Shown here: piece by piece, positions 10,524 through 31,871 of the stretch
Numbering within the stretch: the first letter of the stretch is position 1
How the letters are laid out: the number at the start of each line of letters is the position of its first letter
Assembly: GCA_018901125.1 (NCBI GenBank)
Contig: JAHIFE010000175.1
Location: 1-64,000, forward strand
From: Pseudomonadota bacterium
GTDB taxonomy: Bacteria > Desulfobacterota > Desulfobacteria > Desulfobacterales > RPRI01
Length of the DNA: 64,000 nucleotides
Reading direction: 5' to 3'
Made by a program: the position numbers and the translations under genes
Notes under the pieces: model-generated
The model's input: only the letters and a program-made list of their open reading frames with translations
Databases searched by the model: none
Told to the model about the DNA's origin: nothing

Positions 10524-10576
10524 GAGCATCTCCAATTATTGGTGTGTAAAGTCTGTCTTATACCATAGTTAAGCAT

Positions 10577-15053: not shown

Positions 15054-15086
15054 GAACATCTCACATTGAAAATAAAATAATTTAAT

Positions 15087-16519: not shown

Positions 16520-17965
16520 ATGAATGTAGTACGAGTCAAAGAACATCATCCATTGTATAGTGAATTGTCGGTGATTGTTGGTTCCAAATATACAACAGAT
16601 AGCGACTTTGCCGTGTGGGCATATTCCCGCGATTCAAGTCCGGTTCCTGGCAAAGTTCCGGGAATAATCGTAAGACCCGGCAGCACCGAGGAAGTATCGG
16701 AGATCATCAAACTGGCAAATATAACTCATACCCCGGTAATCCCACGGGGCGGAGGCGCCTCTATTTTTGGTTTTCCGGCAGGTATTCCCGGAAGAAGTAT
16801 AGTAATTGACACGACACGGCTGGACAAATTAATTGAGATCAATGAAGAAAATATGACGGTAACCGCTGAGGCCGGCATCGGTGTATGCGAGCTGGGAACC
16901 AAGTTGACCGAAAAGGGATATTATGCAAATCTTGTCTGGGCTCCATATTATGCGGATACACTTGGTGGCCTGATAGGTGGCGTTATGGGTGGAGGCTGGT
17001 CGACGAGAACTCAAGTAGTAGGACCCAATGCGAATCATATACTGGGTATGAAAGTGGTTACGCCCACCGGAGGCATAATTCAAACCGGGGGAGGTCCGGG
17101 AACTAATGTGCATCGTAAAACCACCTTCATGCGCGATGGGGGCGGACCCGATACGACCGGTTTGTTCATCGGTGATGGAGGAACATTCGGCATTAAAACC
17201 GAAATAACGCTTTCAATTTACCCCCTCGAAACGGTTGCCAAACCAAGAGGCTTTCTCTTCAAGAGTTTTGATGATATCTGGAGCGCGATATCCAAGTTGA
17301 TGGCGATAGAGCCCTTTCCTTATACGAATCTTGTCGGACTTGCACCCAATGCCACGGCGCTGTTTATGAGTGATCCTTGTTGGGTTTTATTATGCTATAC
17401 CAGAGGATATGAGGAAGAGGAGGTAACAACCAAGATTAAGGTAGTAGATGAGGTTTGCAAGGCGGCAGGGGGGGAACTAGGTTCGGAAGCGATTCATATG
17501 CAGGCCAGCGCCGCCGGCACCGGAGAAATGTATCGTGAAATGGGCAAGCTTGCTTCGATAGGTATGTGGGTATTTCTTGAGACGCATGTTCCCAAAGAAG
17601 ATCTTCCGAGACTCTTTAACAAGTATGCTGAGCTGATTGATCAAAGATTCGAGGAAAAAGGCATAAAGGAATATGGCGGTATCAGAATGGATGTTATGTT
17701 GCCTGTGGGGCACGGCGAGTGCTATCTTTCGACAAATGTTTACTGGCAGGTAAATGTTCCGGAAGCAAGAAAGAAAGTTATGGAAATAGCTGATGAATTC
17801 GTTAATGTAACGATAAATGACGGGCTGTTTGCAACAACCGCCCAGCGTATACCCGCCGGAGTAACAGGCGCCAACTGGTCACCCAGTTACTATGAATTTA
17901 TGCGCACCTTGAAGAGGGCTATGGACCCCAACAACATCATTAATCCCGGACATTGGGGACTATAA
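16520..17965 (+). CDS. FAD-binding oxidase, GlcD/LDH-D type, copy 1
   Basis: A 481-residue flavoprotein. The PCMH-type FAD domain covers about 45-225, with PRGGGAS (75-81) and GGLIGGVMGGGWSTRTQ contacting FAD and a glycine-rich block at GLFIGDGGTFGIKTE; the C-terminal FAD-oxidase cap follows and ends DPNNIINPGHWGL, the usual family ending. GlcD-type subunits oxidise 2-hydroxy acids or similar alcohols and pass electrons to a GlcF/HdrD-type Fe-S subunit, which is encoded 18 bases downstream. ATG at 16520 is preceded by AAAGGAG. Substrate unknown. Confidence 0.88.
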   Translation: MNVVRVKEHHPLYSELSVIVGSKYTTDSDFAVWAYSRDSSPVPGKVPGIIVRPGSTEEVSEIIKLANITHTPVIPRGGGASIFGFPAGIPGRSIVIDTTRLDKLIEINEENMTVTAEAGIGVCELGTKLTEKGYYANLVWAPYYADTLGGLIGGVMGGGWSTRTQVVGPNANHILGMKVVTPTGGIIQTGGGPGTNVHRKTTFMRDGGGPDTTGLFIGDGGTFGIKTEITLSIYPLETVAKPRGFLFKSFDDIWSAISKLMAIEPFPYTNLVGLAPNATALFMSDPCWVLLCYTRGYEEEEVTTKIKVVDEVCKAAGGELGSEAIHMQASAAGTGEMYREMGKLASIGMWVFLETHVPKEDLPRLFNKYAELIDQRFEEKGIKEYGGIRMDVMLPVGHGECYLSTNVYWQVNVPEARKKVMEIADEFVNVTINDGLFATTAQRIPAGVTGANWSPSYYEFMRTLKRAMDPNNIINPGHWGL

Positions 17966-17983
17966 AGAGGAGGATAGAAAGAT

Positions 17984-19162
17984 ATGTTAGAGAAATATCG
18001 TTATAATGTTGCCAGATGTGCAAGGTGTGGTATCTGTCGAGCAAAATACTCCGAAAAGGTTCATTATGTTTGCCCCGTCAGGGAGCATACCGGAGGATTT
18101 GAACATTATTTCAGCAGAGGAAGAGTTGCTGTTGCCGCAGGAATTCTGGAGGGCGCCATTGATTATTCTCCAGAACTTGTTGATGTGCTTTATACCTGTC
18201 TTGGCTGTAAAAGTTGCGTGGAGCAATGCGGGTCAGTAGATATGAGAAACGGCAAATCCCTGGTTGATACGGCAAAAATAGTCCGTGAAATGAGAGAAGA
18301 TGCGATTGCATTGGGTTTGGAACCCAAAATAATGCAGGAACTTCACGCTACCGTATCTAAAACCAAGAACACCTTTGGGGGAAACCTGGAGGAGAAGAAT
18401 AAACTGGCTAAAAAGTTTGAACTCCCGGAAAAGGGTGACACAATCTTTTTTTCCGGGTGCTATGGTGTCTATCGGGATCGTAAAGAAGCGGAAGCGACAA
18501 TAAAAATTCTCAAGGCTACAGGAGCAGCACCCGCATATCTGGCCGATAAGGAGTGGTGTTGCGGGGTTATGGAGTACTGGGGCGGCAATACCAAAGTGGC
18601 TAGAGATATGGCCCTGCATAACCTTGAGGCCTTAACTACAGCAGGGGTTAAGACATTGGTAACCGCATGTTCCGGTTGCTTAGATACCATTAAGGATATA
18701 TATCCCGAGATTATAGAAGACAAGCTTCCCTTCAAGGTCATTCACATAAGTGAATATCTGGCGGATCTGGTTGAGAAAGGGGAGTTGAAATTTACCAAAG
18801 AGATCAATAAAACCGTGACCTACCATGACCCCTGTCATTTAGGAAGGCACGCAAGGATATTTGACGCACCCAGGAAAGTAATCGAAAGCATACCCGGTAT
18901 CACACTCAAGGAGATGGAAAGAAACAGAGAGGCTTCCGGTTGTTGTGGTAGTGGCATAGGGGCGGTTAGGGCATTGGAACCTGATTTAGCATTGGCTATT
19001 ACCAATGACAGAATTAAAGAGGCTGTAGCAACGGGTGCCGAAGTCCTTACATCGGCCTGCCCCATGTGTGTGGAACAACTTACGCTGGCAGGTAGGGCAT
19101 CAAAGGCTAAACTGGAATACATAAATCTTCCGGCATTGGTGGCTGAGGCTATGGGGCTATAA
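17984..19162 (+). CDS. GlcF/HdrD-type Fe-S protein with two CCG domains, copy 1
   Basis: A 392-residue electron-transfer subunit. The N-terminus has a cluster motif C12-C15-C18 with C30-Pro and a second CLGCKSCVEQC (near 72-82), for two 4Fe-4S clusters. Two CCG (DUF3390/HdrB-type) domains follow: the first with SGCYG, EWCCG and ACSGC, the second with DPCHLGRH, SGCCGSG and ACPMC, the ligand sets that hold non-cubane 4Fe-4S clusters in heterodisulfide reductases. The first N-terminal cluster has an unusually long 11-residue gap before the fourth cysteine. Pairs with the GlcD-type gene just upstream. Confidence 0.88.
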   Translation: MLEKYRYNVARCARCGICRAKYSEKVHYVCPVREHTGGFEHYFSRGRVAVAAGILEGAIDYSPELVDVLYTCLGCKSCVEQCGSVDMRNGKSLVDTAKIVREMREDAIALGLEPKIMQELHATVSKTKNTFGGNLEEKNKLAKKFELPEKGDTIFFSGCYGVYRDRKEAEATIKILKATGAAPAYLADKEWCCGVMEYWGGNTKVARDMALHNLEALTTAGVKTLVTACSGCLDTIKDIYPEIIEDKLPFKVIHISEYLADLVEKGELKFTKEINKTVTYHDPCHLGRHARIFDAPRKVIESIPGITLKEMERNREASGCCGSGIGAVRALEPDLALAITNDRIKEAVATGAEVLTSACPMCVEQLTLAGRASKAKLEYINLPALVAEAMGL

Positions 19163-19183
19163 TTTGGTTTCGGGTGTCAGGCG

Positions 19184-19216
19184 TCAGGTGTCAGAAACTA
19201 AACTGCTGACACCTGA
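19184..19216. repeat. Hairpin between GlcF-type gene and lipoate carrier
   Basis: TCAGGTGTCAG (19184-19194) and CTGACACCTGA (19206-19216) form a perfect 11-bp stem with an 11-base loop; degenerate GTCAG/CACTGA copies flank it. There is no T run, so it more likely stabilises or processes the message than ends it. It may set the carrier gene apart in expression level. Confidence 0.6.
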
Positions 19217-19260
19217 ACACTGAAAACTGATCCCTTATTTATATTTCGAAAGGAAAGAAA

Positions 19261-19701
19261 ATGGCAGAGATTAACGGATATGATATGCCCGATGATTTGT
19301 ACTATCATAAGGAACACATCTGGGCCAGGGTTGAATTCAAAAAGGTCAGAGTTGGAGTAACTGATTTTGCGCAGAAATCGGCTGGCGATATAGTTTATGT
19401 CGACCTGCCGTTTGAAGGAGATGAAGTAAAGCAGGGTGAACCATTCGGCAAGATGCAATCCGCCAAATGGATTGGCGAATTGTATGCGCCGATAAGCGGT
19501 GAAATCATTTCAGTCAATGAGATTTTGGGCGGGAAACCTACACTGATAAACCAAAGCCCATATGAATCCGGCTGGGTAATTGTTATCAGGCCAAGTAATC
19601 TTGAAGAAGAACTTAAGACACTGATGACGCATAAGACCGGATTGGCGGATTGGTTACAAGGAGAAATAGACAGGGTTAAGGTCCAAACGGAAGGAGCGTA
19701 A
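19261..19701 (+). CDS. GcvH-like lipoate-binding carrier protein (LbpA-like)
   Basis: A 146-residue lipoyl-carrier protein. It follows the glycine-cleavage H protein pattern: HIWARVE, VGVTDFAQKSAGDIVYVDLP, then GKMQSAKWIGELYAPISGE, in which Lys69 is at the position that receives lipoate. The gene lies inside a redox gene run with no gcvT, gcvP or lpd, and close to genes for an alternative lipoate assembly route, so it is more likely a dedicated carrier like the LbpA of sHdr sulfur-oxidation systems than part of glycine cleavage. The lipoyl arm would carry a substrate fragment or electrons between the GlcD/GlcF and HdrBC modules (inference). It ends 10 bases before the second GlcD-type gene. 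Confidence 0.85.
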   Translation: MAEINGYDMPDDLYYHKEHIWARVEFKKVRVGVTDFAQKSAGDIVYVDLPFEGDEVKQGEPFGKMQSAKWIGELYAPISGEIISVNEILGGKPTLINQSPYESGWVIVIRPSNLEEELKTLMTHKTGLADWLQGEIDRVKVQTEGA

Positions 19702-19711
19702 GAAATATCTG

Positions 19712-21181
19712 ATGTCTGTATATGAAGATATAGCGGCAATAGTCGGTGAGGAAAGGATAAGCGAAAGCAATCTTGATCGTATTTGCTATAGTCATGATCT
19801 GGCTCCTCTTCCTGATGATTTGCTTAAGGGATTTGGGGCAACCAAACCTGATGTTGTTGTTAGGCCCGGCAATTTATCACACGTTGCAGACATCATGAAA
19901 TATGCATCCGGTAAGAACATTCCCGTTTCACCCAGGGGCGGAGGTTCATGGGGGCTTGGAGGAGTTATTCCGGTTGGCGGAGGAATTGTTTTAGATTTAA
20001 GCGGAATGAACCGCATTATAGAAGTAAACATTGAAGATGAGTATGTGACGGTAGAAACCGGTGTAGAGTGGAAACGACTAACAAATGCTATCAAAAAACA
20101 TGGATTTTATGTTGGTGCTTGTCCTACAAGCGCTCCGGTTGCTACTGTCGGCGGTTATATTTCAACAGGAGGTTCTTCCGGCATAGGTGTTTCTCAGCAC
20201 GGGCCGCTTGGTGACCATATAATATCTCTAAAAGTTGTACTTGCAGATGGAACGGTTGTCCAGACGAACCCATGGGATTCATGGGTTTTTGTAGGTTCTG
20301 AAGGAACTTTGGGAATAGTTTGTGAAGCAACCATCAAGATATTCAAGAAGAGTAAAATGAAACATATGCTGTTTGGCTTTGACAGCCTTGATGCCGGATT
20401 GGAGGCTGTTATAAAGTTAAACGAAATAAATCCTTATTATTTTACAATTATGGATGATGGCTTTATCAGGTTGTTAAAAGAAAAAGGAAGTCAGCTTCCT
20501 GAAAGTAAAATGATATTGTCGATTACTTTAAATGATATGGACGGTGTGCAGGAAGAAAAAGAAAAAATAATAGAATCAGTTTGCCGTGGAACCAGATTAT
20601 CTGATGATATGGCTGAAGAAGAATGGGAAAACAGATATAAGACAGCACTTAGCATTAAAAGCCTTGGGCCTACGCTGTTGACACAGGAAATCAGACTTCC
20701 TGCCAGATTTCTGGGGCAGGCGCTGAGCGAATGGAAAACCGTTTTAAAGGGAAAAAGGTTCGCTTTCAAAGGTGTTTGCAGTGATAATGGGGCTATAAAT
20801 CTTTTTCCTGTAGTACTGACAGATGAAAGAAATAAAAATGAGTTTATTAAGACTCTTTCTTATACCCGTGAAATTGCAAGAATTGGAAGAAAATATAATG
20901 GCGATGTTTATGGTATAGGACTTTTTAACTCAAACCAGATGACAGATATTCATGGCAAATCACTTGAAGTAATGAAAGAGATAAAAATGATTTTGGATTC
21001 AAAGAACATACTTAATCCGGGTAAAACGGTTGAAAGCCCAATCCCTGATTTCTTCTTATCTTTTATTTTCACACTGATGAAACATGCGACACCTCTTTTT
21101 GCTTTCCTTGCAAAAAGCGTAAATCGCCTTCCGGATAGTTTTGTAAATAATGCTTCAAAGTTCTTAAAGGGTAGAAAGTGA
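19712..21181 (+). CDS. FAD-binding oxidase, GlcD type, copy 2
   Basis: A 489-residue flavoprotein. The PCMH FAD domain (about 45-220) shows PRGGGSWGLGG (74-84), TVGGYISTGGSSGIG and VGSEGTLGIVCEAT; the cap domain ends in DSKNILNPGKTVE. Unlike copy 1 it has a C-terminal extension of about 50 residues with a hydrophobic stretch (FFLSFIFTLMKH and LFAFLAKSVNRL), which may anchor it to the membrane. It overlaps the GlcF-type gene downstream by four bases, so the two are translationally coupled. Sequence similarity to copy 1 is low, indicating a different substrate or an old duplication. Confidence 0.87.
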   Translation: MSVYEDIAAIVGEERISESNLDRICYSHDLAPLPDDLLKGFGATKPDVVVRPGNLSHVADIMKYASGKNIPVSPRGGGSWGLGGVIPVGGGIVLDLSGMNRIIEVNIEDEYVTVETGVEWKRLTNAIKKHGFYVGACPTSAPVATVGGYISTGGSSGIGVSQHGPLGDHIISLKVVLADGTVVQTNPWDSWVFVGSEGTLGIVCEATIKIFKKSKMKHMLFGFDSLDAGLEAVIKLNEINPYYFTIMDDGFIRLLKEKGSQLPESKMILSITLNDMDGVQEEKEKIIESVCRGTRLSDDMAEEEWENRYKTALSIKSLGPTLLTQEIRLPARFLGQALSEWKTVLKGKRFAFKGVCSDNGAINLFPVVLTDERNKNEFIKTLSYTREIARIGRKYNGDVYGIGLFNSNQMTDIHGKSLEVMKEIKMILDSKNILNPGKTVESPIPDFFLSFIFTLMKHATPLFAFLAKSVNRLPDSFVNNASKFLKGRK

Positions 21182-22290
21182 AACAACAAATAAACGATTT
21201 AATATCCAAGGATGTTTATACCTGTGCCAGCTGCGGCTTCTGCCGTTTTGGGTGCCCCGTATCCAAGAATGTGGGTTTTGAAAGCCAAACGGCAAGAGGA
21301 AGAATGTATCTTCTGAAAAAATATCTTGAGGGCGGATTGGAATATGACAAAGATTTGATTGAATCATTTTATACTTGCGCTTTATGCGGAAACTGTAATG
21401 AGATCTGTCCGACAGGTGTTGATTATCTTGAAATTGTCTCACATTTAAGAAAACAGTTCGTAGAATCGGGGAAACTTCCTGAATCCCAAAAAATGTTAAG
21501 AGATAATCTGACAAAATGCGGAAATCCTTTTGCCAAGGATAAAGAAGAAAGAGGGGCATGGCTTCCTCCCCAATACCGTGAGCCCAAAAAAAGCAAATAT
21601 CTTTATTTTGTAGGCTGTTCATCTTCATATTCTTCTACAAGAATCGCCAAATCAATTATGAGAATATTAGAGAGTGTGAAATTTGATTTTACTGTAATGG
21701 GAAATCTGGAAAGCTGCTGTGGAGATCCTTTGTTTCGAATGGGTGAAGAAGATCAGGCAAATGCATTGATGCAGAAAAATATTGATGTATTTGATAATCT
21801 TGGGGTTGAAACTATTTTTGCCTCCTGCGCCGGATGTTATAAAACATTAAAAAACAAGTTTCCAAAAAAATATAAGGTGCTGCATATAACCCAACTTCTC
21901 CATCAGTTGGTTGAACAGAAAACACTAGTATTCAAAAAAGAACTCCCCAATAAAATTATATACTTTGACGGATGCGACATAGGAAGACATTGCAAAACTT
22001 ATGAAGAACCCAGGGAATTGTTGAAAGCAATCCCGGGGGTTGAATTGCTTGAGTTCGACTACAACAGAGATGAAGCCATGTGTTGCGGAGGCCCTTTTGC
22101 AGCGAGTGATCCGAACCTTGCGGCAAAAATAGCCGAAGACAGAGTGAGAGAAGCGGAAGAACAAGGAGCAGAGATCATTGCCACCGCCTGTCCCACCTGT
22201 ATGGTTAATTTGAGGGAAGGGGCAAGAAGAATAGGAAGTGAAATAGAAGTTCAGGATATCACATTAATGCTGCCAAAATTAATTCGGTGA
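21178..22290 (+). CDS. GlcF/HdrD-type Fe-S protein with two CCG domains, copy 2
   Basis: A 370-residue Fe-S protein started by GTG inside the stop of the preceding gene. Two N-terminal 4Fe-4S motifs (CASCGFCRFGCP near 16-27 and CALCGNCNEICP near 67-78) are followed by two CCG domains: VGCSS, ESCCGDP and ASCAGC, then DGCDIGRH, AMCCGGP and ACPTC. All cysteines of both sets are present. It should accept electrons from the GlcD-type partner and hand them on to a quinone or another carrier. Confidence 0.88.
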   Translation: MKQQINDLISKDVYTCASCGFCRFGCPVSKNVGFESQTARGRMYLLKKYLEGGLEYDKDLIESFYTCALCGNCNEICPTGVDYLEIVSHLRKQFVESGKLPESQKMLRDNLTKCGNPFAKDKEERGAWLPPQYREPKKSKYLYFVGCSSSYSSTRIAKSIMRILESVKFDFTVMGNLESCCGDPLFRMGEEDQANALMQKNIDVFDNLGVETIFASCAGCYKTLKNKFPKKYKVLHITQLLHQLVEQKTLVFKKELPNKIIYFDGCDIGRHCKTYEEPRELLKAIPGVELLEFDYNRDEAMCCGGPFAASDPNLAAKIAEDRVREAEEQGAEIIATACPTCMVNLREGARRIGSEIEVQDITLMLPKLIR

Positions 22291-22294
22291 AAAA

Positions 22295-23101
22295 TTGAAT
22301 AATATACTTAAATGGATAGATACAGAAATTGTTGAGTTAAACGGCGACGCTACTATTAGCGATGTTAATGCCGAACTGGGAGAATATTGCCTTCCTGTTG
22401 AGCCGTTAAGCGCAAAAAAAACAATCAGCCGGTTTGTTAAAGAAGGCGGGATAGGGTATAATTCCCTGCGAAACGGAACGCTCGGTTCTTCAATATTTCA
22501 GTTGTCCTCAACATTTTCCGGTACCAAGTTTACTTATGGCAGCAAATATAAAACTCTTTACAATGCAGGGTATCCATTGCACAGGATCATCGAGGCGCCA
22601 TCATTTTTTAAAGAAATGACCCAAAAATTTGACCAAATAGAAAATATAGTATTGCCTGTCAGAAAAAATAAAGCCGTAGAACTGACTTTTAACAATGGCC
22701 AACTTGATCAATTTAATCAAAATCATACCCCTGACCATGCATCCAATATTATTTTTATTAATGATTTTGGAGCTAAACTAATGGGCTTGGAAGGAGAAGG
22801 AGTTGTTACAACTTATCTTCGTTACAACCAGACGAATGGAGAAATAAAAAAGGGAATATGGGAAAAAAGGTTTCTGGAAGACATGATTCCTGATGATCAC
22901 AATACTATAAAGTTTCTTACAATGAACAGCCGGGTTACGGAAATATATAAGGTTTTTAATGAAAACTCAAAAGGTCTTTTTTTTGCATTACGTGTACATA
23001 AGGGTATCCTGGTTTTGATGTCCGGGGAAAAAAGACAGCTTGATACGATCGGTGAAAGTATTCGTAGTATTCCTCTGACCTTTGAAATAGGGGCTTTATA
23101 A
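22295..23101 (+). CDS. GlcE-like protein with a reduced FAD-binding domain
   Basis: A 268-residue protein placed directly after GlcD/GlcF copy 2, where glcE sits in many glycolate oxidase operons. The N-terminal half (EYCLPVEPLSAKKTISRFVK, GIGYNSLRNGTLGSSIFQLS, LYNAGYPLHRI) follows the pattern of the GlcE/PCMH domain, but the usual PRGGG loop is missing, the domain is short and the C-terminal half has no known motif. It may be a structural subunit that no longer binds FAD. The last base of its stop codon is the first base of the next gene's ATG, indicating coupling. Assignment is tentative. Confidence 0.5.
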   Translation: MNNILKWIDTEIVELNGDATISDVNAELGEYCLPVEPLSAKKTISRFVKEGGIGYNSLRNGTLGSSIFQLSSTFSGTKFTYGSKYKTLYNAGYPLHRIIEAPSFFKEMTQKFDQIENIVLPVRKNKAVELTFNNGQLDQFNQNHTPDHASNIIFINDFGAKLMGLEGEGVVTTYLRYNQTNGEIKKGIWEKRFLEDMIPDDHNTIKFLTMNSRVTEIYKVFNENSKGLFFALRVHKGILVLMSGEKRQLDTIGESIRSIPLTFEIGAL

Positions 23102-24660
23102 TGGATGATTGGCGGTTATTGGATACGGGAGTCTTAAGCGCAGCAGAAAACATGGCCTTAGATGAGGTGATATTAGAGGCGAGAAGTAAGGAATTTATTC
23201 CCAATACCCTTCGTTTTTTACAATTTAACCCACCGGCGGTCCTGGTCGGCTACTATCAAGGCGTAGAGCAGGAAGTGAGAACAAAATATTGTCGGGAACA
23301 AACCATTGATATTAACAGACGAATGACCGGGGGCGGGGCTATATTTTTTGACCGTTCGCAGCTTGGCTGGGGGATATATGCCTTAAAAAAAGATATAGGA
23401 GCTGCAAATTTAGAGATATTATTTAAAAAGATATGTCAGGCCGTTATTCTTGGGTTAAAGAGGTTTGGCATTGATGCTAAATATCGGCCTAAAAATGATA
23501 TAGAAGTAGCAGGCAAAAAGATTTCAGGAACAGGCGGCACTGAAGAAAAAAGCGCATTTTTATTTCAGGGAACCCTGCTTATGGATTTTGACGTTGATAC
23601 CATGCTTAAATCTCTCCGAATCCCAACTGAGAAGTTAATGGATAAAGGGATAGAGTCCGCCAGAGAACGCATTACATGTCTTAAGTGGGAACTGGGATAC
23701 CTGCCAAAGTTGAGCGAGGTCAAGGATGCGATCAGAGAAGGCTTCGAAGAAACATTTAAAATCAAATTTGCAGAAGGCCGATTGACAGAATATGAACAGG
23801 GGCTGCTTGCGAATAAGATAGATAGATTTAAATCGAATGAGTGGATTTATCAAAGAAAAGGATCTGTTGAAAAACTTCCGATCTTAACCTCAAGTTACAG
23901 AACAAAAGGCGGATCAATTCAGGTTTCTTTAGCTATTAATGTTGAGACCAATATCATTCAGAGTGTTTTAATTACGGGTGATTTCTTTGCCCATCCGAAA
24001 AGCGCCTTATTTGACCTGGAAGCGGCCTTAAAATTTACTCGTGCTGAAAAAGAAAGAATACAGGAAGTAGTTTATGATTTCTTTGAAAAGGAAAAGGGGT
24101 TATTTCCGGATATATCTCCTTCTGATTTTGTCGATGCAATATATGAGGCGGTAGAAAAAGGTGAATGCTTAAAACATGGAATCTCTTCGCCTGAAGCTAA
24201 CAGGATCTTTACCGTAAATGGTACTTTTGATGAGATAATCAAACAGAAACCATCTTACTTATTGCTTCCATATTGCGCCAAGCTTGTTGATTGTGAACAT
24301 AGACATAAGAGGGAGTGCGTGGACTGCGGGGAATGCAGTGTTGGTGATGTTTATCGTTTGGCAAGTGAAAAAGGATTAAGCCCTGTTACTATTACCAGTT
24401 TTGAGGACTTGATGGAAACCCTTGCCGATATGGAATCTAAAGGGATTAAGTCTTATATCGGAAGCTGCTGCAGACAGTTTTATATCAAACACCGGAAGGA
24501 CTTTGAAATGGCAAAGCTTTGCGGCATATTGATCGATATTGAAAATACTACCTGTTATGAACTGGGAAAAGAGAATGAGGCCTATAGCGGTGTCTTTAAA
24601 GGTCAAACCGAACTGGATGCAGGATTGATCAGCAAGATATTGAATAGTTGCGAGCAGTAA
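23101..24660 (+). CDS. Lipoate-protein ligase fused to DUF116
   Basis: A 519-residue two-part enzyme. Residues 1-250 are an LplA-type catalytic domain: NRRMTGGGAIFFD (72-84) binds lipoyl-AMP and KNDIEVAGKKISG contains the conserved lysine (Lys140). Residues about 255-355 match the LplB-like accessory domain needed for adenylation. Residues about 380-515 are a DUF116 domain with a Cys-rich cluster (C392, C398, C406, C409, C412, then C456-C457, C474, C485), probably a metal or Fe-S site. It should attach octanoate or lipoate to the nearby carrier, as sLpl does in sHdr systems. The fusion to DUF116 hints that redox or metal chemistry is coupled to ligation. Confidence 0.85.
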   Translation: MDDWRLLDTGVLSAAENMALDEVILEARSKEFIPNTLRFLQFNPPAVLVGYYQGVEQEVRTKYCREQTIDINRRMTGGGAIFFDRSQLGWGIYALKKDIGAANLEILFKKICQAVILGLKRFGIDAKYRPKNDIEVAGKKISGTGGTEEKSAFLFQGTLLMDFDVDTMLKSLRIPTEKLMDKGIESARERITCLKWELGYLPKLSEVKDAIREGFEETFKIKFAEGRLTEYEQGLLANKIDRFKSNEWIYQRKGSVEKLPILTSSYRTKGGSIQVSLAINVETNIIQSVLITGDFFAHPKSALFDLEAALKFTRAEKERIQEVVYDFFEKEKGLFPDISPSDFVDAIYEAVEKGECLKHGISSPEANRIFTVNGTFDEIIKQKPSYLLLPYCAKLVDCEHRHKRECVDCGECSVGDVYRLASEKGLSPVTITSFEDLMETLADMESKGIKSYIGSCCRQFYIKHRKDFEMAKLCGILIDIENTTCYELGKENEAYSGVFKGQTELDAGLISKILNSCEQ

Positions 24661-24682: not shown

Positions 24683-25753
24683 TTGAGCCGGAAATTAAAC
24701 TATGATTTAGTGATAGTTGGAGCAGGGCCTGCGGGTACTACGGCAGCTAGTATTGCATCCGGGAAGGGAATTCGCACATTAATAGTAGAGAAGAAGACCT
24801 GCATAGGATCGCCGGTTCAATGCGCTGAACATATTCCCAGACTATTGACGCAACAGGTTAATTTTAATAGCCGTTGTATCGCTCAGGAAGTCGGTATGAT
24901 GATAACGTATATGCCGGGTGGGGATATAATAGAGACAAAGGCGCCTGGGTATATAATAGACAGGTCGCTATTTGATAAAGGATTGGCCCTTGATGCAATC
25001 AGCAAAGGCGCTGATTTAATGATCAGGACTGTTGCTGTTTCCCGCAATGAGAAAGGTATTATTGTAAAAACGGGAGGCAAAGAAGTAAGTATTGAGGCAA
25101 AAGTGATTATCGGGGGCGATGGCCCAAACTCCACAGTAGGCGGTTGGATCAATCGGAGAAATAATGAATTTGTATCTGCCGCACAATGCGAAGTACTTCT
25201 CAATAAACCTATAGAATCAACACTTATCTATTTTGGCTTAGAATATATGGGTGGATATGGCTGGCTGTTTCCTAAAGGGCAAACGGCAAATGTTGGTGTA
25301 GGAATAAACAATAAGATCGGCCGCCAAAAACTTTCGGTATGCTTAAAACATTTATTAGACAGGTTGCAAAAGGAAGAAAAAATCAGGGACAAGAGTGCCG
25401 TTTCTTATACCGCAGGGCTGATTCCGGTTGGCGGGTGTCTTGATACCAGCCCATACGAAAACATATTGATAATTGGAGATGCCGCCGGACAGACAGATCC
25501 CATAACAGGCGCAGGTATTCCCCAGGCCGTTTCCTGCGGAAGGATTGCCGGAGAGGTCGCCGCAAAAGCCATTAAAGAAAATAATCTGGTGATTCTCGGT
25601 GAATATGAAAAGAGATGGAAAAATCTTTTTGGAAGATCGCTTGATAATGCTTATCAGAAGAGAAAGTTATTGGACAATCACTGGAAGGACGAACAATTAG
25701 ATCAAATTATCAGAAAAACATGGGTGGCCTTTGATGAGTATTGGAGACAATAA
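24683..25753 (+). CDS. lipT: Geranylgeranyl-reductase-family flavoprotein (LipT-like)
   Basis: A 356-residue FAD oxidoreductase. The dinucleotide fold is at the N-terminus (IVGAGPAGTTAA, glycines 13, 15, 18), followed by CIGSPVQCAEHIP and the second FAD contact IIGDAAGQTDPITGAGIPQA. By general family it is a geranylgeranyl-reductase-like protein, but in lipoate assembly clusters with LipS1/LipS2 such a protein is known as LipT and is thought to supply electrons for sulfur insertion. The surrounding ligase and radical SAM genes make that reading likely. The start is TTG at 24683 with AAGGTGGG upstream. A role in lipid saturation cannot be excluded. Confidence 0.75.
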   Translation: MSRKLNYDLVIVGAGPAGTTAASIASGKGIRTLIVEKKTCIGSPVQCAEHIPRLLTQQVNFNSRCIAQEVGMMITYMPGGDIIETKAPGYIIDRSLFDKGLALDAISKGADLMIRTVAVSRNEKGIIVKTGGKEVSIEAKVIIGGDGPNSTVGGWINRRNNEFVSAAQCEVLLNKPIESTLIYFGLEYMGGYGWLFPKGQTANVGVGINNKIGRQKLSVCLKHLLDRLQKEEKIRDKSAVSYTAGLIPVGGCLDTSPYENILIIGDAAGQTDPITGAGIPQAVSCGRIAGEVAAKAIKENNLVILGEYEKRWKNLFGRSLDNAYQKRKLLDNHWKDEQLDQIIRKTWVAFDEYWRQ

Positions 25754-26669
25754 TATTTCAGGGCTGATGTCTGAGGCCAGAGAACTTACATGGAAAAAAT
25801 GGGGGAAAAACATAGATTTCTATCTTCCGGGGATGATCACCTTAAATAAAGAAAAGGGGAAATATCCCGCTTTTTCCATTACCGGAGAATATTGTGAATT
25901 GAACTGCGACCATTGTGGTGGTCAACTATTAAAATCCATGATTCCTGCCGTTACTCCGGATCAATTAATAGAAAAATGTCTAAAGATAAATGAGTCCGGC
26001 AATCAGGGTTGTCTGATCAGCGGCGGTTGTCTTAAAAATGGAAGATTGCCCTGGGAGCCTTTCATTGATGCCATTTCTGAAGTTAAAAAACTTACCAACC
26101 TGAACATATCTATCCATTCCGGTCTGATAGATCTTGAAACGGCCAAAAGATTCAAGGATGCAGGAGTAGATCAGGTTCTGATCGATGTAATCGGAGATGA
26201 CGAAACTTTTAATACCGTTTGCCATACAAGTGCAGGCATTGAATCAATAAAAAATTCATTAATGGCCTTAAAGCAGACAGGAATTTCTATCGCCCCTCAC
26301 ATTGTGGCCGGTTTATACTATGGAAAGATTAAGGGTGAATTGGATGCATTAAGGATGATTGCCGAATTTAAACCCCCGATTCTGGTCATTGTAGTATTGA
26401 TGCCTTTGACCGGGACTCCGATGCAAAACATTTTACCGCCGGATCCTTTTGAGGTGGCAAAGCTCATAGCTATGGCAAGAATAGAAATGCCGGATACCAT
26501 TATTTCTCTGGGTTGCGCCCGCCCACGGGGAAAGATTAGTGAAAAGCTGGAAACACTGGCTATTGATTCCGGGGCGAATCGGATCGCTATCTGGTCCGAT
26601 GCAGCGATAAACAGAGCAAAGGAATACGGGTTAGAGATCGGATTCCATAAGACTTGTTGTAGTGTTTAG
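25734..26669 (+). CDS. Radical SAM protein, LipS-like lipoyl synthase component (first)
   Basis: A 311-residue radical SAM enzyme. The cluster motif is C54-x3-C58-x2-C61 in TGEYCELNCDHCGG. It overlaps the end of the LipT-like gene by 20 bases, so ATG 25734 is used rather than the TTG one codon earlier. In the alternative lipoate pathway two radical SAM proteins, LipS1 and LipS2, together insert two sulfur atoms into the octanoyl chain. This gene and the one at 28065-29099 are the candidates; I cannot say which is which from sequence alone. Several conserved cysteines near the C-terminus (LGCARPRGK, KTCCSV) may hold the second, sulfur-donating cluster. Confidence 0.78.
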   Translation: MSIGDNNISGLMSEARELTWKKWGKNIDFYLPGMITLNKEKGKYPAFSITGEYCELNCDHCGGQLLKSMIPAVTPDQLIEKCLKINESGNQGCLISGGCLKNGRLPWEPFIDAISEVKKLTNLNISIHSGLIDLETAKRFKDAGVDQVLIDVIGDDETFNTVCHTSAGIESIKNSLMALKQTGISIAPHIVAGLYYGKIKGELDALRMIAEFKPPILVIVVLMPLTGTPMQNILPPDPFEVAKLIAMARIEMPDTIISLGCARPRGKISEKLETLAIDSGANRIAIWSDAAINRAKEYGLEIGFHKTCCSV

Positions 26670-26678
26670 GAGGAGTTT

Positions 26679-27038
26679 GTGCCTGAATGTACTGGTTGTA
26701 TGGATTGCGAAAAGGTGTGTCCCCTCACTCCCTTCGGTATTGGAATCGGCAATATAATCAGAAAGCATATTGCCGGAAAAGAAGAAGACCTTATTGATAC
26801 GAAAGATATATGGCAATGCACAATGTGCTTTGCCTGCGACGATTCCTGTCCTATTGGCTTTAAGCCCAGAGAACTGATGATTCGTCTTCGGAGAAGATCC
26901 AAAAACTACCCTGAAGCCTACAAAAAACTGATAGCCGGAATAAGAAAATCCGGAAATGCTTTTCCCATGAAGGGAGAAGTTAACACAGATTACTCAGAAC
27001 TTTTCAAGTTGTGTATGCCCATGGATTTTTATAAATGA
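26679..27038 (+). CDS. HdrC-like 2x[4Fe-4S] protein
   Basis: A 119-residue ferredoxin-like subunit started by GTG, with AGGAGG nine bases upstream. Two cluster motifs are complete: C4-C7-C10-C14-Pro and C47-C50-C53-C57-Pro. The size and the helical linker between the clusters match HdrC of heterodisulfide reductases. It overlaps by four bases the HdrB-like gene that follows; the two should form one complex. Confidence 0.85.
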   Translation: MPECTGCMDCEKVCPLTPFGIGIGNIIRKHIAGKEEDLIDTKDIWQCTMCFACDDSCPIGFKPRELMIRLRRRSKNYPEAYKKLIAGIRKSGNAFPMKGEVNTDYSELFKLCMPMDFYK

Positions 27039-27874
27039 AATACGCTCTTTTTAAAGGTTGTATCATACCTTACAGGCTTTCATATTATGAAATATCCGCC
27101 CGAAGAGTATTGGCAATTTTAGGGATAGAACTGGTTGATCTTGATTTTGGTTGCTGTGGTTCACAAATGCTGGAATCAGGAAACGAAGATTTATGGCTTG
27201 CAGTAGCAGCTAGAAATCTCGCACTGGCGGAAAGAGAAAATGTAGATATACTGACCCTGTGTGGAAGCTGTACCAATACCTTATCCAGGGCAAGGCAACT
27301 AATGAAAAGCGATATGGACAAAGCTCTTCATGTGAAAAGGATTCTAAGAAAAATAGGAATTGAATTCAAAAACAAGACAAGAGTCTTACATATTTTAAAA
27401 CTTTTGGCTGGTGAAACAGGAATTGGAAAAGTACATAAACATATCAGGAAGAATCTGGATTTCAAGGTTGCTCTGCAACATCCTTGTCAGATTTACCGGC
27501 CAGCCGAAATAATGAATTTAGGCAAGGATGCTGTTAAAGATTTCGTTTCTTCTTTTATATCTGAGGTCTTTTATCTGGATGACTGCTGCGGGGAAACTTT
27601 GATCGCTACGGATCAGGGTTTGTGCATCAGTATTTTAAAACAAAATCTAAAAGCTTGTCATGCCAAAGGTGTAAACGTAATCGTAACGGCCTGTGGGAAT
27701 TGCCAGATGACATATGATGTAAATCAGATGGGGTTAAAAGTAAAAGATGAAATTATAAAGGCTCTGCCCTCCTTAACAATAACTCAAGCGTTAGGAATTG
27801 CCATGGGATTTGGATATGATGAACTTGGGTTGAGGCAGAACCTTATAAAGGTTGATAACAAGGTTTTTGGATAA
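27035..27874 (+). CDS. HdrB-like protein with two non-cubane cluster (CCG) motifs
   Basis: A 279-residue protein with both CCG ligand sets intact: C9, C40-C41, C76, C79 and C151, C184-C185, C220, C223. In HdrB these hold the twin non-cubane 4Fe-4S clusters that cleave or form disulfide bonds. With the HdrC-like partner it forms an HdrBC unit; there is no HdrA in the window, so electrons must come from or go to another subunit, perhaps the GlcD/GlcF pairs. A disulfide on the lipoyl carrier would be a natural substrate (inference). Confidence 0.88.
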   Translation: MKYALFKGCIIPYRLSYYEISARRVLAILGIELVDLDFGCCGSQMLESGNEDLWLAVAARNLALAERENVDILTLCGSCTNTLSRARQLMKSDMDKALHVKRILRKIGIEFKNKTRVLHILKLLAGETGIGKVHKHIRKNLDFKVALQHPCQIYRPAEIMNLGKDAVKDFVSSFISEVFYLDDCCGETLIATDQGLCISILKQNLKACHAKGVNVIVTACGNCQMTYDVNQMGLKVKDEIIKALPSLTITQALGIAMGFGYDELGLRQNLIKVDNKVFG

Positions 27875-28064: not shown

Positions 28065-29099
28065 ATGATAATTGAAGAACAACAAAGCCCTGAATACTTG
28101 AAGATGAGCATGGCTGCTGCGCTGACCTTAGGTTTTAAAAACGGGCGTTTCTTTCGAAATGCCAGGTTATATTGTATCAATTTGCTACAAATATATTCCG
28201 GGGGATGTACTGCTAACTGCGCTTATTGTGGTCTTTCCAGAGACAGGTTCAATAATTTTAAAGAAAATAGTTTCATCAGGGTAGATTGGCCCACCTACGC
28301 CCTGGATGACATCATAGAAAAGATGGACGTAAATAAAAATATGTTCAAAAGAATCTGTATATCCATGATAACCAATAAAAGGTCGCCGGATGATGTTCTT
28401 TGCATCATCGAAAAAATAAGAGCCAAATTGGACACCCCCATCTCCGTTCTTATCTGTCCCACAATTATCACGGAAGTTGACTTGGCTAAATTTAAGGAAA
28501 GCGGCGCTGATAAGATAGGGGTAGCTATAGATGCTGCAACCCCGGAGCTGTTTGATAAATACAGGGGCAAGGGAGTAAGAGGTCCTCACCGGTGGGAAAA
28601 ATACTGGGATACTTACCAGAAAGTAATAGAAGTATTTGGCGGTGAAAATTCCGGAGTTCATCTCATCGTTGGATTGGGCGAAACAGAAAAAGAAATGGTC
28701 GATACTATCCAAAGGTCATCCGATATGGGTGGAGGCACCCATCTCTTCTCATTTTACCCCGAACCTGCCTCTCAAATGGAACAACAACAACCGCCCCCTG
28801 TCGGTCAATATCGAAGAATTCAACTGGCCAGATATCTGATTGATGAAAATATCACCAGCATCAACAATTTCGATTTCGATAGCTTGGGGAAGATCAAAGA
28901 TTTTGGATTACCTGAATATGAATTGGAAAAAATCATTAATTCCGGGCTACCTTTTATGACCAGCGGATGTAAGGGAAAAGACGGAATGGTTGCTTGCAAC
29001 AGGCCCTATGGCAACTATCCTCCACCTGAGATAAGGAATTATCCATTCCATTTGACACCTGATGATGTAGAGATTGTGAAAAATCAGTTGTGGTCATAA
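28065..29099 (+). CDS. Radical SAM protein, LipS-like lipoyl synthase component (second)
   Basis: A 344-residue radical SAM enzyme with the cluster motif C48-x3-C52-x2-C55 in YSGGCTANCAYCGLS. It resembles biotin-synthase-like members (IRVDWPTYALDDII, then VGLGETEKEMV, SFYPEP). A C-terminal FMTSGCKGKDGMVACNRPYG may carry ligands of a second cluster. With the radical SAM protein at 25734-26669 it would make the LipS1/LipS2 pair. ATG 28065 follows AGGAGG. Last gene of the lipoate group before the second membrane protein. Confidence 0.78.
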   Translation: MIIEEQQSPEYLKMSMAAALTLGFKNGRFFRNARLYCINLLQIYSGGCTANCAYCGLSRDRFNNFKENSFIRVDWPTYALDDIIEKMDVNKNMFKRICISMITNKRSPDDVLCIIEKIRAKLDTPISVLICPTIITEVDLAKFKESGADKIGVAIDAATPELFDKYRGKGVRGPHRWEKYWDTYQKVIEVFGGENSGVHLIVGLGETEKEMVDTIQRSSDMGGGTHLFSFYPEPASQMEQQQPPPVGQYRRIQLARYLIDENITSINNFDFDSLGKIKDFGLPEYELEKIINSGLPFMTSGCKGKDGMVACNRPYGNYPPPEIRNYPFHLTPDDVEIVKNQLWS

Positions 29100-29176: not shown

Positions 29177-29274
29177 TTCTTTGGCATGAATCAGCTCTTT
29201 TGTTGTTTCATGTTTAGCCTGACAGCGCTTAGTAGTTGATGTGATCCTTAAAAGGGCTGTTTCATGCCAAAGAA
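29177..29274. repeat. Long inverted repeat ahead of membrane protein copy 2
   Basis: TTCTTTGGCATGAATCAGC (29177-29195) is the near-perfect reverse complement of GCTGTTTCATGCCAAAGAA (29256-29274), with about 60 bases between. The right arm contains an in-frame ATG (29264) upstream of the chosen start of the membrane protein. May be an operator or an mRNA structure. Confidence 0.6.
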
Positions 29275-29317
29275 AATATATTCGATAACGAGGAAGAATA
29301 ATATTAAAGGAGAAAAG

Positions 29318-30235
29318 ATGGAAGTGAAACAATTGAGAAATTTAAAATGTTTAAGATTGTCACTGTATTTACTTCTTGTTCTGTTATTTTGCAGCAGTAT
29401 CGTTCAGGCTCAGGAAATGGCTGATTACGGAAATCTATTTCCCTTACAAGTGAATCAATTAGCACCTGACTTTATACAAAAGTATCAGATTTTCTGGACG
29501 TCTCTTATGCTCGTTGGTATTATCGCTTATGCGGTATATAGACTTCTGCGTCATAAGGACTCGATACTTCTCTTCACGATGGGCGCCGGTGTTATCGCCT
29601 TTTTTAATGAGGGAAACCTTGAAGTCCTTGTCCACGTCACACAGCCGGCCAACACAATGTTGCCTGTATTCTGGAACTACGGTATGCCTATGGGTTTGGG
29701 TTTAGGCATTGGTTACGTCGCTGTATTTCCGCTCGTGTCTTACATTGCTTACCGCTACTTAAAAAAAGGACTAAGTACCAGGGGTTTTATCATTCTGTGG
29801 GCTGCAATTGCTCTGAGTAATTTGGCGATGGAAGTTCCGGGCATCGCCCTGGGGGAGCAATATGTATATCAACCGCCGCAAATGCTTACAATCCTTGGCT
29901 TTCCTGTGTATAATGTCTGGATCAACGCGACCTCATGGCTTTTCAGCGGTGTTCTGATGTACTTTTTTGTTCCGGTGCTGAAGGGCTGGAAGCGGCCACT
30001 CATTTCCTTGTTGCCATTTTTTGCATTTGCCGCCGGCTGGGGTATAATGGATGTTCCGATCGTGTGCGCCCTGAACATCGCCGGAATGCCTGCCTGGGGT
30101 CAATGGGTGCTGTGGTTCGCATCGCTCGGTCTTAGCATCATCATACTGGTCACTTTGCATAATATGGTTACTGTGACTTCCAAAACAAGATGGAAATTGC
30201 CGTGGGCGACATTGGATTCGGAAGTAGCGCTGTAA
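29318..30235 (+). CDS. Multi-span membrane protein, unknown family, copy 2
   Basis: About 305 residues, close paralogue of the protein at 15475-16383. Both share the signal-like N-terminus ending VQA, the segments FTMGAGVIAFFNE and AAGWGIMDVPIVCALNIAGMP, and the C-terminal SKTRWKLPWATLD. About eight hydrophobic helices in all. The start at 29318 is preceded by AAAGGAG and matches copy 1; the upstream ATG at 29264 lies in an inverted repeat and is unlikely. It ends 82 bases before regulator 3, which is on the opposite strand. Function unknown; the two copies bracket the lipoate/Hdr-type genes. Confidence 0.8.
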   Translation: MEVKQLRNLKCLRLSLYLLLVLLFCSSIVQAQEMADYGNLFPLQVNQLAPDFIQKYQIFWTSLMLVGIIAYAVYRLLRHKDSILLFTMGAGVIAFFNEGNLEVLVHVTQPANTMLPVFWNYGMPMGLGLGIGYVAVFPLVSYIAYRYLKKGLSTRGFIILWAAIALSNLAMEVPGIALGEQYVYQPPQMLTILGFPVYNVWINATSWLFSGVLMYFFVPVLKGWKRPLISLLPFFAFAAGWGIMDVPIVCALNIAGMPAWGQWVLWFASLGLSIIILVTLHNMVTVTSKTRWKLPWATLDSEVAL

Positions 30236-30317: not shown

Positions 30318-31871
30318 TCACTTAGCCCTTATTGAGCCGGCACGGATACCGAGCTTGCGCATTTTTGTCCGAAGTGTCGAAGGATTTATTTTAAGGAGTT
30401 TTGCTGCACCCTTTTCTCCGTCCACACGGCCACCGGTCATGTTCAGTGCATTCACAATCGCATGTGACATCGCTTGTTCAAGGCTTTGAGGGTTTCTCTC
30501 ATTACTCTGGGGCATAATGGTCTCTTCGCAAGGGTTAATGTCGCTCAGATTGTCAAAGGCCAGCGGTTTTTCCCTGCTTAGGATAAGAGCATGTTCTATT
30601 GTATTTTGAAGTTCCCGGACATTTCCCGGCCAGTTGTAGTTCATCAGTTTTTCTATGGCTCCGGGTGCAAGACTGGGGACCTCTGAAAAACCCAGTTCTT
30701 GAGTCTTCTTTACCATGAAATATTGCACCAGGGCAGGGATATCGGCGCGCCGGTCACACAGAGGTGGGATTACAATGGGAAAAACCCGCAAGCGGAAATA
30801 GAGATCTGTGCGGAACTTGCCTTCTGCCAGCATTGCTTCCAGATTGCGGTGCGTAGCAGCGATAATGCGGATATCAACCTTGATGGTTTCTGATCCGCCA
30901 ACCCGTTCAATTTCCTTTTCATGGATCACCCGCAGGAGTCTGATTTGTGCCCCAGGTGTTAACTCACCGATTTCATCAAGAAAGATTGTGCCTCCCTGAG
31001 CCCTTTCAAAGCGGCCCCGCTTCTGAGAAAAGGCTCCTGTAAATGCTCCCTTCTCATGACCAAATAACTCGCTATCCATAAGGGACTCAGGAATAGCTCC
31101 ACAATTTACCTTAATAAAAGGGCCGTTTCTTCGCAGCGAAAGATTATGAAGAGCAGTGGCTATGACTTCTTTTCCCGTTCCCGTTTCCCCCAGCAAGAGA
31201 ACAGGGCTGGTCAGTGGCGCCACCTGGCCGACCATTTCCATAACCTGCTTCAGGCCGAATCTGGCCCCCACGATCTCTTCTCCTGCTTGTTGCCGCAACT
31301 CTTCCTGTAAATACCGGTTATCATCCGCAAGGATTTCTTTGAGTCGCAGGACTTCCCGGTAACGCAGAAAATTGCTTAGCGCTATAGTAAAAGGCTCATT
31401 CAATAGTGTAAAAAGCTGTATGTGTTTTTCTGAGTATTTTTCTCCTCTGTTATTACCAACAAGAATACCGGCGACAAAACCCCATTCCGGATTTGGCCAG
31501 ATCGCCATAAAAGCAGAATCAGGATGGCCAATAATTTCAGACATTGGTCCCATAATCGGATGATCGCCAATTCGGTCGGCCACCAAGACCTTCGGTGTCA
31601 TTTCAAGATTTTTTCTCATTTCCTTAATCAGCTTTTTAGTTTCCGCCGGGGCAACGGTTTTGATGGAGATAAGTTTTCCTCCGCTTAAATCCGCCTTTGC
31701 AATGGTTTCCCCAAGCCCAACAATTGGATCATAAATATCTATAAGCATGCTGTCTGCCGGGATGTATTCACGAATATACATAAAGCAGTCCCATAGCGCT
31801 TTCTCGATCTCCAGACTACTGCAGATCCGCAAGGTGGCCTCCCGGAAAAAATAATTTTTATCTATCTGCAT
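30318..31871 (-). CDS. Sigma-54-dependent transcriptional activator, copy 3
   Basis: A 517-residue paralogue of the two regulators at 8970 and 13500, with GAF-like sensor, AAA+ domain ([22 protein letters not shown]) and C-terminal helix-turn-helix ([16 protein letters not shown]). The C-terminal tail differs after the recognition helix (RAGSIRAK instead of the PFGRK ending). Start ATG 31871 has GGGAG six bases ahead. It is divergent from the RND efflux operon at 32066-37916, which has its own sigma-54 promoter, and is therefore the likely activator of the pump. Confidence 0.93.
   Translation of the reverse strand: MQIDKNYFFREATLRICSSLEIEKALWDCFMYIREYIPADSMLIDIYDPIVGLGETIAKADLSGGKLISIKTVAPAETKKLIKEMRKNLEMTPKVLVADRIGDHPIMGPMSEIIGHPDSAFMAIWPNPEWGFVAGILVGNNRGEKYSEKHIQLFTLLNEPFTIALSNFLRYREVLRLKEILADDNRYLQEELRQQAGEEIVGARFGLKQVMEMVGQVAPLTSPVLLLGETGTGKEVIATALHNLSLRRNGPFIKVNCGAIPESLMDSELFGHEKGAFTGAFSQKRGRFERAQGGTIFLDEIGELTPGAQIRLLRVIHEKEIERVGGSETIKVDIRIIAATHRNLEAMLAEGKFRTDLYFRLRVFPIVIPPLCDRRADIPALVQYFMVKKTQELGFSEVPSLAPGAIEKLMNYNWPGNVRELQNTIEHALILSREKPLAFDNLSDINPCEETIMPQSNERNPQSLEQAMSHAIVNALNMTGGRVDGEKGAAKLLKINPSTLRTKMRKLGIRAGSIRAK

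Follow-up and report, generated by a model that had tools for sequence, protein, structure and literature searches.

A lipoate-protein ligase joined to a cysteine-rich DUF116 domain recurs beside lipS1 and lipS2 in bacteria and archaea

We describe a gene in a 64,000-nucleotide stretch of DNA from a bacterium of the Desulfobacterota (GenBank assembly GCA_018901125.1, contig JAHIFE010000175.1, positions 1 to 64,000), referred to here as the window. The gene, at 23101..24660 on the plus strand, encodes a lipoate-protein ligase with a C-terminal DUF116 domain, 519 amino acids in all, and the same fusion recurs in bacteria and archaea next to the genes for the lipoyl synthase LipS1/LipS2. Our overall explanation, put forward tentatively and as somewhat short of probable, is that this is a ligase of the LipS1/LipS2 type extended by an iron-sulfur DUF116 domain that aids sulfur insertion. 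Each turnover of a lipoyl synthase destroys its auxiliary clusters, and the natural reductant of LipS1/LipS2 and the renewal of their clusters in these organisms are the question addressed here; a conserved, iron-sulfur-like domain, joined to the ligase and tied to lipS1 and lipS2 in bacteria and archaea, is a concrete candidate for that role. DUF116, hitherto only predicted to transfer electrons, gains a testable setting, and the question of LipS1/LipS2 turnover is itself made testable.

The reading frame is uninterrupted, and its assignment rests on Pfam matches and on a tail with eight conserved cysteines. A first-pass annotation of this DNA, made from the letters alone, had read the first 355 residues as an LplA-type ligase with its accessory domain, and Pfam agrees: the catalytic domain LplA-B_cat covers residues 14-216 (23140..23748; all features of the protein and of its gene cluster are on the plus strand) with 159 bits against a cut-off of 27, and the accessory, LplB-like domain Lip_prot_lig_C covers residues 266-347 (23896..24141) with 31.5 bits against 24. 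Both lipoate-protein ligase families, PF21948 and PF10437, are therefore matched above their curated cut-offs. Narrower models score lower: NF053749 (LplB) gives 46.3 bits, below its cut-off of 65, and the LplA equivalog TIGR00545 of NCBIfam matches residues 10-347 with 182.6 bits, below 280, so that the protein is not assigned to that equivalog. In an alignment of 76 fused proteins (A3: the window and 75 of the 80 named loci introduced below, omitting L089, L091, L105, L116 and L121, which are truncated or of odd length), R73, R74, T76 and G77-79 of the RRxTGGG stretch are invariant, as is Lys140 (23518..23520). A phmmer alignment pairs Lys140 with a lysine of Listeria LplA1 that we take to be the catalytic one. 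A structure model of the whole protein has a mean predicted local distance difference test (pLDDT) score of 89.2, and its best Foldseek matches in the PDB are lipoate-protein ligases. From its family, the ligase half is predicted to attach octanoate or lipoate to a carrier protein.

The rest of the protein is a DUF116-like tail (residues 366-519; 24196..24657), identified by Pfam, by profile match and by its modelled fold. The DUF116 family (PF01976) matches residues 380-487 at model positions 36-143 of 155, with 35.3 bits against a cut-off of 25, and this is the only DUF116 match in the source genome. The last 140 residues had been described as DUF116 with at least nine cysteines; indeed we count ten, at 392, 398, 406, 409, 412, 456, 457, 474, 485 and 517. 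Eight are almost perfectly conserved: the box C392, C398, C406-x2-C409-x2-C412 (24274..24336), each in 76/76 rows; the pair C456-C457 after the third strand (24466..24471), in 75/76 and 76/76; and C485 of a TCY motif (24553..24555), in 76/76. C474 and C517 recur in 1/76 and 5/76, and position 455 is cysteine in 55/76 rows and serine in the window protein. Stand-alone DUF116 proteins keep seven cysteines in 30/30 cases, and a profile alignment of them with the tail (probability 94, E 1.6e-7) pairs these with 392, 398, 406, 409, 412, 457 and 485. As aligned, C456 is the extra cysteine of the fused subfamily. A separate tail alignment (A4) additionally leaves out L104 and L111. We consider it quite likely, on the strength of this conservation, that the tail binds one or two iron-sulfur clusters through its eight near-invariant cysteines.

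Modelled alone, the tail forms four strands alternating with helices (pLDDT 90.9; predicted template modelling score, pTM, 0.87), a flavodoxin-like/Rossmann 2x2 fold; by its secondary structure, the loops that follow strands 1, 3 and 4 of the parallel-type core carry the conserved cysteines. This model agrees in fold class with a 2015 prediction that stand-alone DUF116 is flavodoxin-like, metal-binding and electron-transferring (PMC5898192). A search of PDB sequences at E up to 10 found no relative of the tail. Foldseek of the tail model reached a best E of 0.058; VIA-align gave a best Z of 8.8 to a designed Rossmann protein, followed by type II dehydroquinases at Z 7-8 and about 4 Å root-mean-square deviation. 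We read these matches as sharing a generic Rossmann/flavodoxin-like fold only.

Is the fusion peculiar to this genome? A species genome collection scanned with a tail alignment from fused proteins yielded 117 relatives, and the best 80 were taken as named loci. By record titles, these 80 belong to Desulfobacterota, Chloroflexota, Actinomycetota, WOR-3, Sumerlaeota, Thermoplasmatota, Bathyarchaeota, Asgard lineages and others, and a ligase lies upstream of the tail in the same open frame in 80/80. The query was derived from fused proteins, which makes searches with a tail-only profile the fairer test of fusion. Run against the window's phylum (395 genomes), a profile of this kind gave 48 matches with E no higher than 1e-20, spread over 47 genomes; none of the open frames that hold them is shorter than 519 amino acids. 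We checked 30 of these loci: ligase and tail are joined without a stop in 29/30, and in the 30th (L212) they share one frame with no internal stop. Among 151 genomes of the phylum of locus L085 there were seven strong tail matches, in six of which the tail shares its frame with the ligase; in the seventh (L198) the two are adjacent, with a frame change within the ligase, and two further matches were weak and in short open frames. Some of the named loci are also members of the phylum set, among them L066 (= L051), L139 (= L039), L118 (= L041) and L112 (= L040). A 1330-amino-acid open frame in genome G674 proved to be read-through in guanine-cytosine-rich DNA around an ordinary fused protein. 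Because the architecture recurs in all the named loci and in relatives of the same phylum, the fusion is genuine, neither a chance event nor an assembly join; it is old and not local. Its nearest relative is L066, from uncultured Desulfobacterium TRIP AH-1, with a matching operon. Since the tail was not found in the one genome of the same genus or in the listed genomes of the same order, while L066 has the same operon, these data suggest that the window's lineage gained the fusion horizontally.

The genes beside the fusion give it a functional setting. Within about 6 kilobases (kb) of the 80 named fusions we found lipS1 at 64, lipS2 at 63, lipT at 68 and at least one of the three at 77, with a GcvH-like gene nearby at 34. 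Where flanks are complete (34 loci), lipS1 or lipS2 is present in 33, the exception being L143, and lipT in 31. The same tie appears across genomes. In a first draw of 148 genomes of the window's phylum, the fusion occurs in 22 (21 by Pfam, plus G118 by tblastn) and a strong LipS1 match in 26, strong meaning above 180 bits, a threshold we set ourselves at a wide score gap and of which only two matches pass the NCBIfam cut-off. Twenty-one genomes have both, one has the fusion only (G094, on a short contig) and five LipS1 only; Fisher's p = 8e-20, calculated over related genomes and not a count of independent events. Ordinary DUF116 (above 160 bits) behaves differently: of the 50/148 genomes that have it, six share it with LipS1, which is no tie (p = 0.26), and no lip gene was found in 11/11 wider loci around stand-alone DUF116. 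At locus L167 it stands in a row with genes for deformylase, methionyl-tRNA formyltransferase and RsmB (def-fmt-DUF116-rsmB), and at L166 deformylase and formyltransferase genes precede it. A general link between DUF116 and lipoate, and with it the expectation that DUF116 genes always neighbour LipS genes, is therefore rejected. Because the fusion tracks LipS1 (21/22) and ordinary DUF116 does not, the lipoate link belongs to the fused subfamily and not to DUF116 at large. The first-pass proposal that DUF116 is tied to lipoylation is thus strongly supported for that subfamily, fused in all 80 named loci and near lip genes in 77; homologues with no lipoate link, which it had named as contrary evidence, do exist in the parent family, from which the fused, lipoate-tied subfamily is separate.

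How might such a protein work? The ligase half would load octanoate or lipoate onto a carrier, the likeliest one being the GcvH-like product of an upstream gene, and the tail would hold one or two iron-sulfur clusters on its eight cysteines. That the tail acts at sulfur insertion by LipS1/LipS2 seems to us, on balance, probable. More specifically, its likeliest role there is that of a one-electron relay from LipT, a flavin adenine dinucleotide (FAD) protein, to the radical S-adenosylmethionine (SAM) clusters of LipS1/LipS2, with the ligase meanwhile keeping the octanoyl carrier at hand; this detailed form is our leading candidate, though by itself less probable than not, and in it we infer the metal, the partner and the direction of electron flow. 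We favour a relay because the conserved cysteines resemble fixed ligands, electron transfer has been predicted for stand-alone DUF116 and lipT is often close by. LipT has been proposed as electron donor to LipS1/LipS2 (PMC10332631). Supplied with ferredoxin, reductase and reduced nicotinamide adenine dinucleotide phosphate (NADPH), LipS1/LipS2 achieve turnovers of about 1.5 and 1, their auxiliary clusters being the source of sulfur (PMC9585515).

Several observations weigh against this interpretation. Ligases without the tail occur in similar gene clusters: L061 (G031) has a near-identical operon of GcvH, GlcD, GlcF, 268-amino-acid protein, tail-less ligase, LipS2 and LipS1, and L062 (G001) has GcvH, ligase, lipT, lipS1 and lipS2 with the tail absent. 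Thermococcus LipS1/LipS2 are reported to be active in vitro without it (PMC9585515). Three of the 80 named loci (L076, L102 and L130) have no lip gene that we could find within about 6 kb, and lipT was not found in 3/34 loci with complete flanks. Neither sequence nor structure comparison of the tail found a PDB relative with a metal site. In the whole-protein model the domains appear well formed but their arrangement is uncertain (pTM 0.53); and it is from topology that the cysteines, their loops following strands 1, 3 and 4, could meet at one edge of the core. Finally, the data fit an electron relay and a cluster donor alike, and the two cannot be told apart.

Unfused ligases also bear on how the fusion arose. 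L196 (G068, from the same family as G031) has the same upstream block as L061, its ligase being cut at the contig end. In Chloroflexota the full profile matched in 20/151 genomes, three of the matches reaching the tail (centre genome included); several of the unfused ligases there adjoin genes for GcvH-like and CCG proteins, those of L186-L188 standing with lipS1 and lipS2, and lipT was not found near them. In Thermoplasmatota 54/116 genomes matched, 10 into the tail (centre genome included). At one thermoplasmatal locus (L241, G360) an unfused ligase lies beside a diverged fused one, and no lip genes were found in that stretch. In a rapidly built tree, 106 ligase domains were compared; the 90 fused rows fell into one group, supported at 88 by the Shimodaira-Hasegawa-like approximate likelihood ratio test (SH-aLRT), together with a single unfused row, L062; placement of the unfused rows is unsure, given their long branches. 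From the first phylum set the tree omits L039, L040, L041, L043 and L051, which duplicate named rows or were assumed to be nearly identical to them (L043 unchecked), and L054, removed by the open-frame filter; it also omits the unfused L062_unf1, L196_unf0 and L197_unf0 and the five rows absent from A3. Two changes of state between fused and unfused are needed on it, and the simplest reading is one gain, wide transfer and one loss of the tail. Since unfused ligases occur in similar clusters, the DUF116 domain is accessory.

The nearest competitor to a relay is that the tail gives a [4Fe-4S] cluster, or its sulfur, to LipS1/LipS2 and so rebuilds the sacrificed auxiliary clusters, in the way that NfuA acts as iron-sulfur carrier for LipA. 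We judge it rather unlikely. It draws on the genetic tie between tail and lipS1/lipS2, on the two or three consecutive cysteines at 455-457 and on the low turnover numbers (about 1-1.5) of enzymes whose auxiliary clusters are the sulfur source (PMC9585515). However, eight cysteines so tightly kept would suit a protein with a fixed cluster better than a labile carrier, stand-alone DUF116 is found outside the lipoate setting and the Thermococcus SmsB-SmsC scaffold can itself supply the clusters of LipS1/LipS2 (PMC12442378). A combined form, in which the tail is a dedicated turnover module that takes electrons from LipT and also renews the consumed clusters, is quite unlikely. In that case one polypeptide would both load the octanoyl carrier and sustain the enzymes that insert sulfur; DUF116 would thereby receive its first function, and the ability of LipS1/LipS2 to exceed one turnover in these organisms would be accounted for.

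A purely structural part, with zinc or a structural cluster in a domain that tethers LipS1, LipS2 or LipT to the ligase and has no redox role, is likewise unlikely. Such a docking domain would accord with related systems that lack it, with the absence of a known redox relative in the PDB and with the fusion of DUF116 elsewhere to polyprenyl synthetase (PMC5898192); near-total conservation of eight cysteines over bacteria and archaea, however, exceeds what one zinc site needs. The suggestion in the first-pass annotation that the tail senses redox state or shuttles sulfur has no direct support; to us, relaying electrons or donating a cluster is the preferable role. Paired cysteines could support a switch of ligase activity, but a general redox sensor would have no need of constant linkage to LipS genes, and ligases outside LipS clusters showed no tail in the 80 named loci or in the Chloroflexota and Thermoplasmatota surveys; a sensor is very unlikely. 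The tail-less L062 within the fused clade might hint that the tail has no function and was merely carried along neutrally, but this can practically be dismissed for a domain kept with invariant cysteines in numerous phyla, archaeal as well as bacterial.

In the window, the fusion gene sits in a plus-strand row with most gaps under 25 bases. Downstream lie a FAD oxidoreductase of the geranylgeranyl reductase family (24683..25753; TIGR02032, 201 bits, cut-off 158.8), taken for LipT from its neighbourhood; lipS1 (25731..26669; NF053742, 232.9 bits, cut-off 230) and lipS2 (28065..29099; NF053743, 239.1 bits, below the cut-off of 270 but the best family), each a radical SAM half of lipoyl synthase; and, between these two, a 4Fe-4S dicluster protein (26679..27038; Fer4 families) and a CCG-domain protein (27035..27874; 73.9 bits). 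Upstream is the GcvH-like lipoyl carrier (19261..19701; TIGR00527, 132 bits, cut-off 115.85), with Lys69 in SAKW and no cysteine, most likely the substrate of the fused ligase. The lipoyl lysine is kept in 39/40 aligned GcvH-like neighbours of fused ligases, the window included, and the remaining row is a fragment. In these neighbours (L066-L141) the lysine is mostly followed directly by tryptophan, phenylalanine or tyrosine (SAKW, SGKW, SAKF), a feature that may distinguish the carriers on which the fused ligase acts. Elsewhere in the source genome, contig C195 carries a second ligase-family protein adjoining LipA and a GcvH fragment, and the window system is therefore a second, separate lipoylation system; LipA scores above its cut-off in 23/38 fusion-bearing genomes. 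In genome G000, contig C16 (L175) has adjacent GcvH-like open frames of 307 and 335 amino acids.

Two pairs of GlcD-like FAD proteins (FAD_binding_4, FAD-oxidase_C; 16520..17965 and 19712..21181) and GlcF/HdrD-like iron-sulfur proteins with two CCG domains each (CCG, Fer4_8; 17984..19162 and 21178..22290) flank the carrier within 16520-23101. A 268-amino-acid protein (22295..23101) follows, with no Pfam match of its own, perhaps a degenerate relative of FAD_binding_4. One of five homologues matches that family, at E 0.0078; searches found no convincing family, with probability 0.2 against a GlcD profile and PDB matches at E 1.9-2.2. Its homologues occur in 4/148 phylum genomes, in the carrier/ligase block. 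The block gcvH-glcD-glcF-268-amino-acid protein-ligase recurs in L066, L067, L061 and, cut, L196, and gcvH stands with glcD- and glcF-type genes also in L085, L115, L127, L237 and L240; it may encode a lipoyl-dependent oxidoreductase distinct from sHdr. The whole cluster is bracketed by a similar gene pair (15475-16383 and 29264-30235; 231/301 aligned residues identical), hydrophobic by eye and with no Pfam match. Three sigma-54 activator genes, all on the minus strand (8970-10535, 13500-15059 and 30318-31871), two of them adjoining the cluster ends, are possible regulators of the cluster; the sigma-54 promoter pattern occurs nine times against 7.45 expected, which is no evidence for such promoters.

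Among known systems, the closest is the sLpl(AB)-LipS1/LipS2-LipT pathway (Tanabe et al. 2023, PMC10332631), in which LplA and LplB domains share one chain. The window likewise has lipS1, lipS2 and lipT alongside its ligase and a GcvH-like carrier nearby; the extra C-terminal DUF116 domain sets it apart, and DUF116 is not mentioned in the main text of that paper. Most LbpA carriers of sulfur oxidisers are reported to have two conserved cysteines, some archaeal LbpA excepted (PMC6067878); the carrier here is free of cysteine, and on that criterion we reject a setting in sulfur oxidation of the sHdr type, shdr genes not having been sought in the genome. Stand-alone DUF116 (COG1852, arCOG02078) resembles the tail in its seven cysteines of identical order and its predicted flavodoxin-like fold, and differs in its open frames of 256-398 amino acids, in having one cysteine fewer and in the def-fmt-rsmB operon, free of lip genes, at the locus checked. 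Stand-alone COG1852 proteins are further described as having two N-terminal transmembrane segments before the globular domain (PMC5898192); in the window protein the residues preceding the tail are ligase by Pfam, no transmembrane predictor having been run. The bifunctional lipoate-protein ligase/lipoyl synthase NF053790 also fuses a ligase to a sulfur-insertion module, there LipA by the model's name, and of the 606 model positions only 35-305 are matched by the window protein; by analogy it offers a precedent for joining the ligation and sulfur-insertion steps. NfuA may be comparable in function, should the tail prove to replenish clusters. We found no description of a DUF116-ligase fusion in the literature searched, in which coverage of subscription journals was thin. 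The ligase, the LipS pathway and DUF116 were each already known singly.

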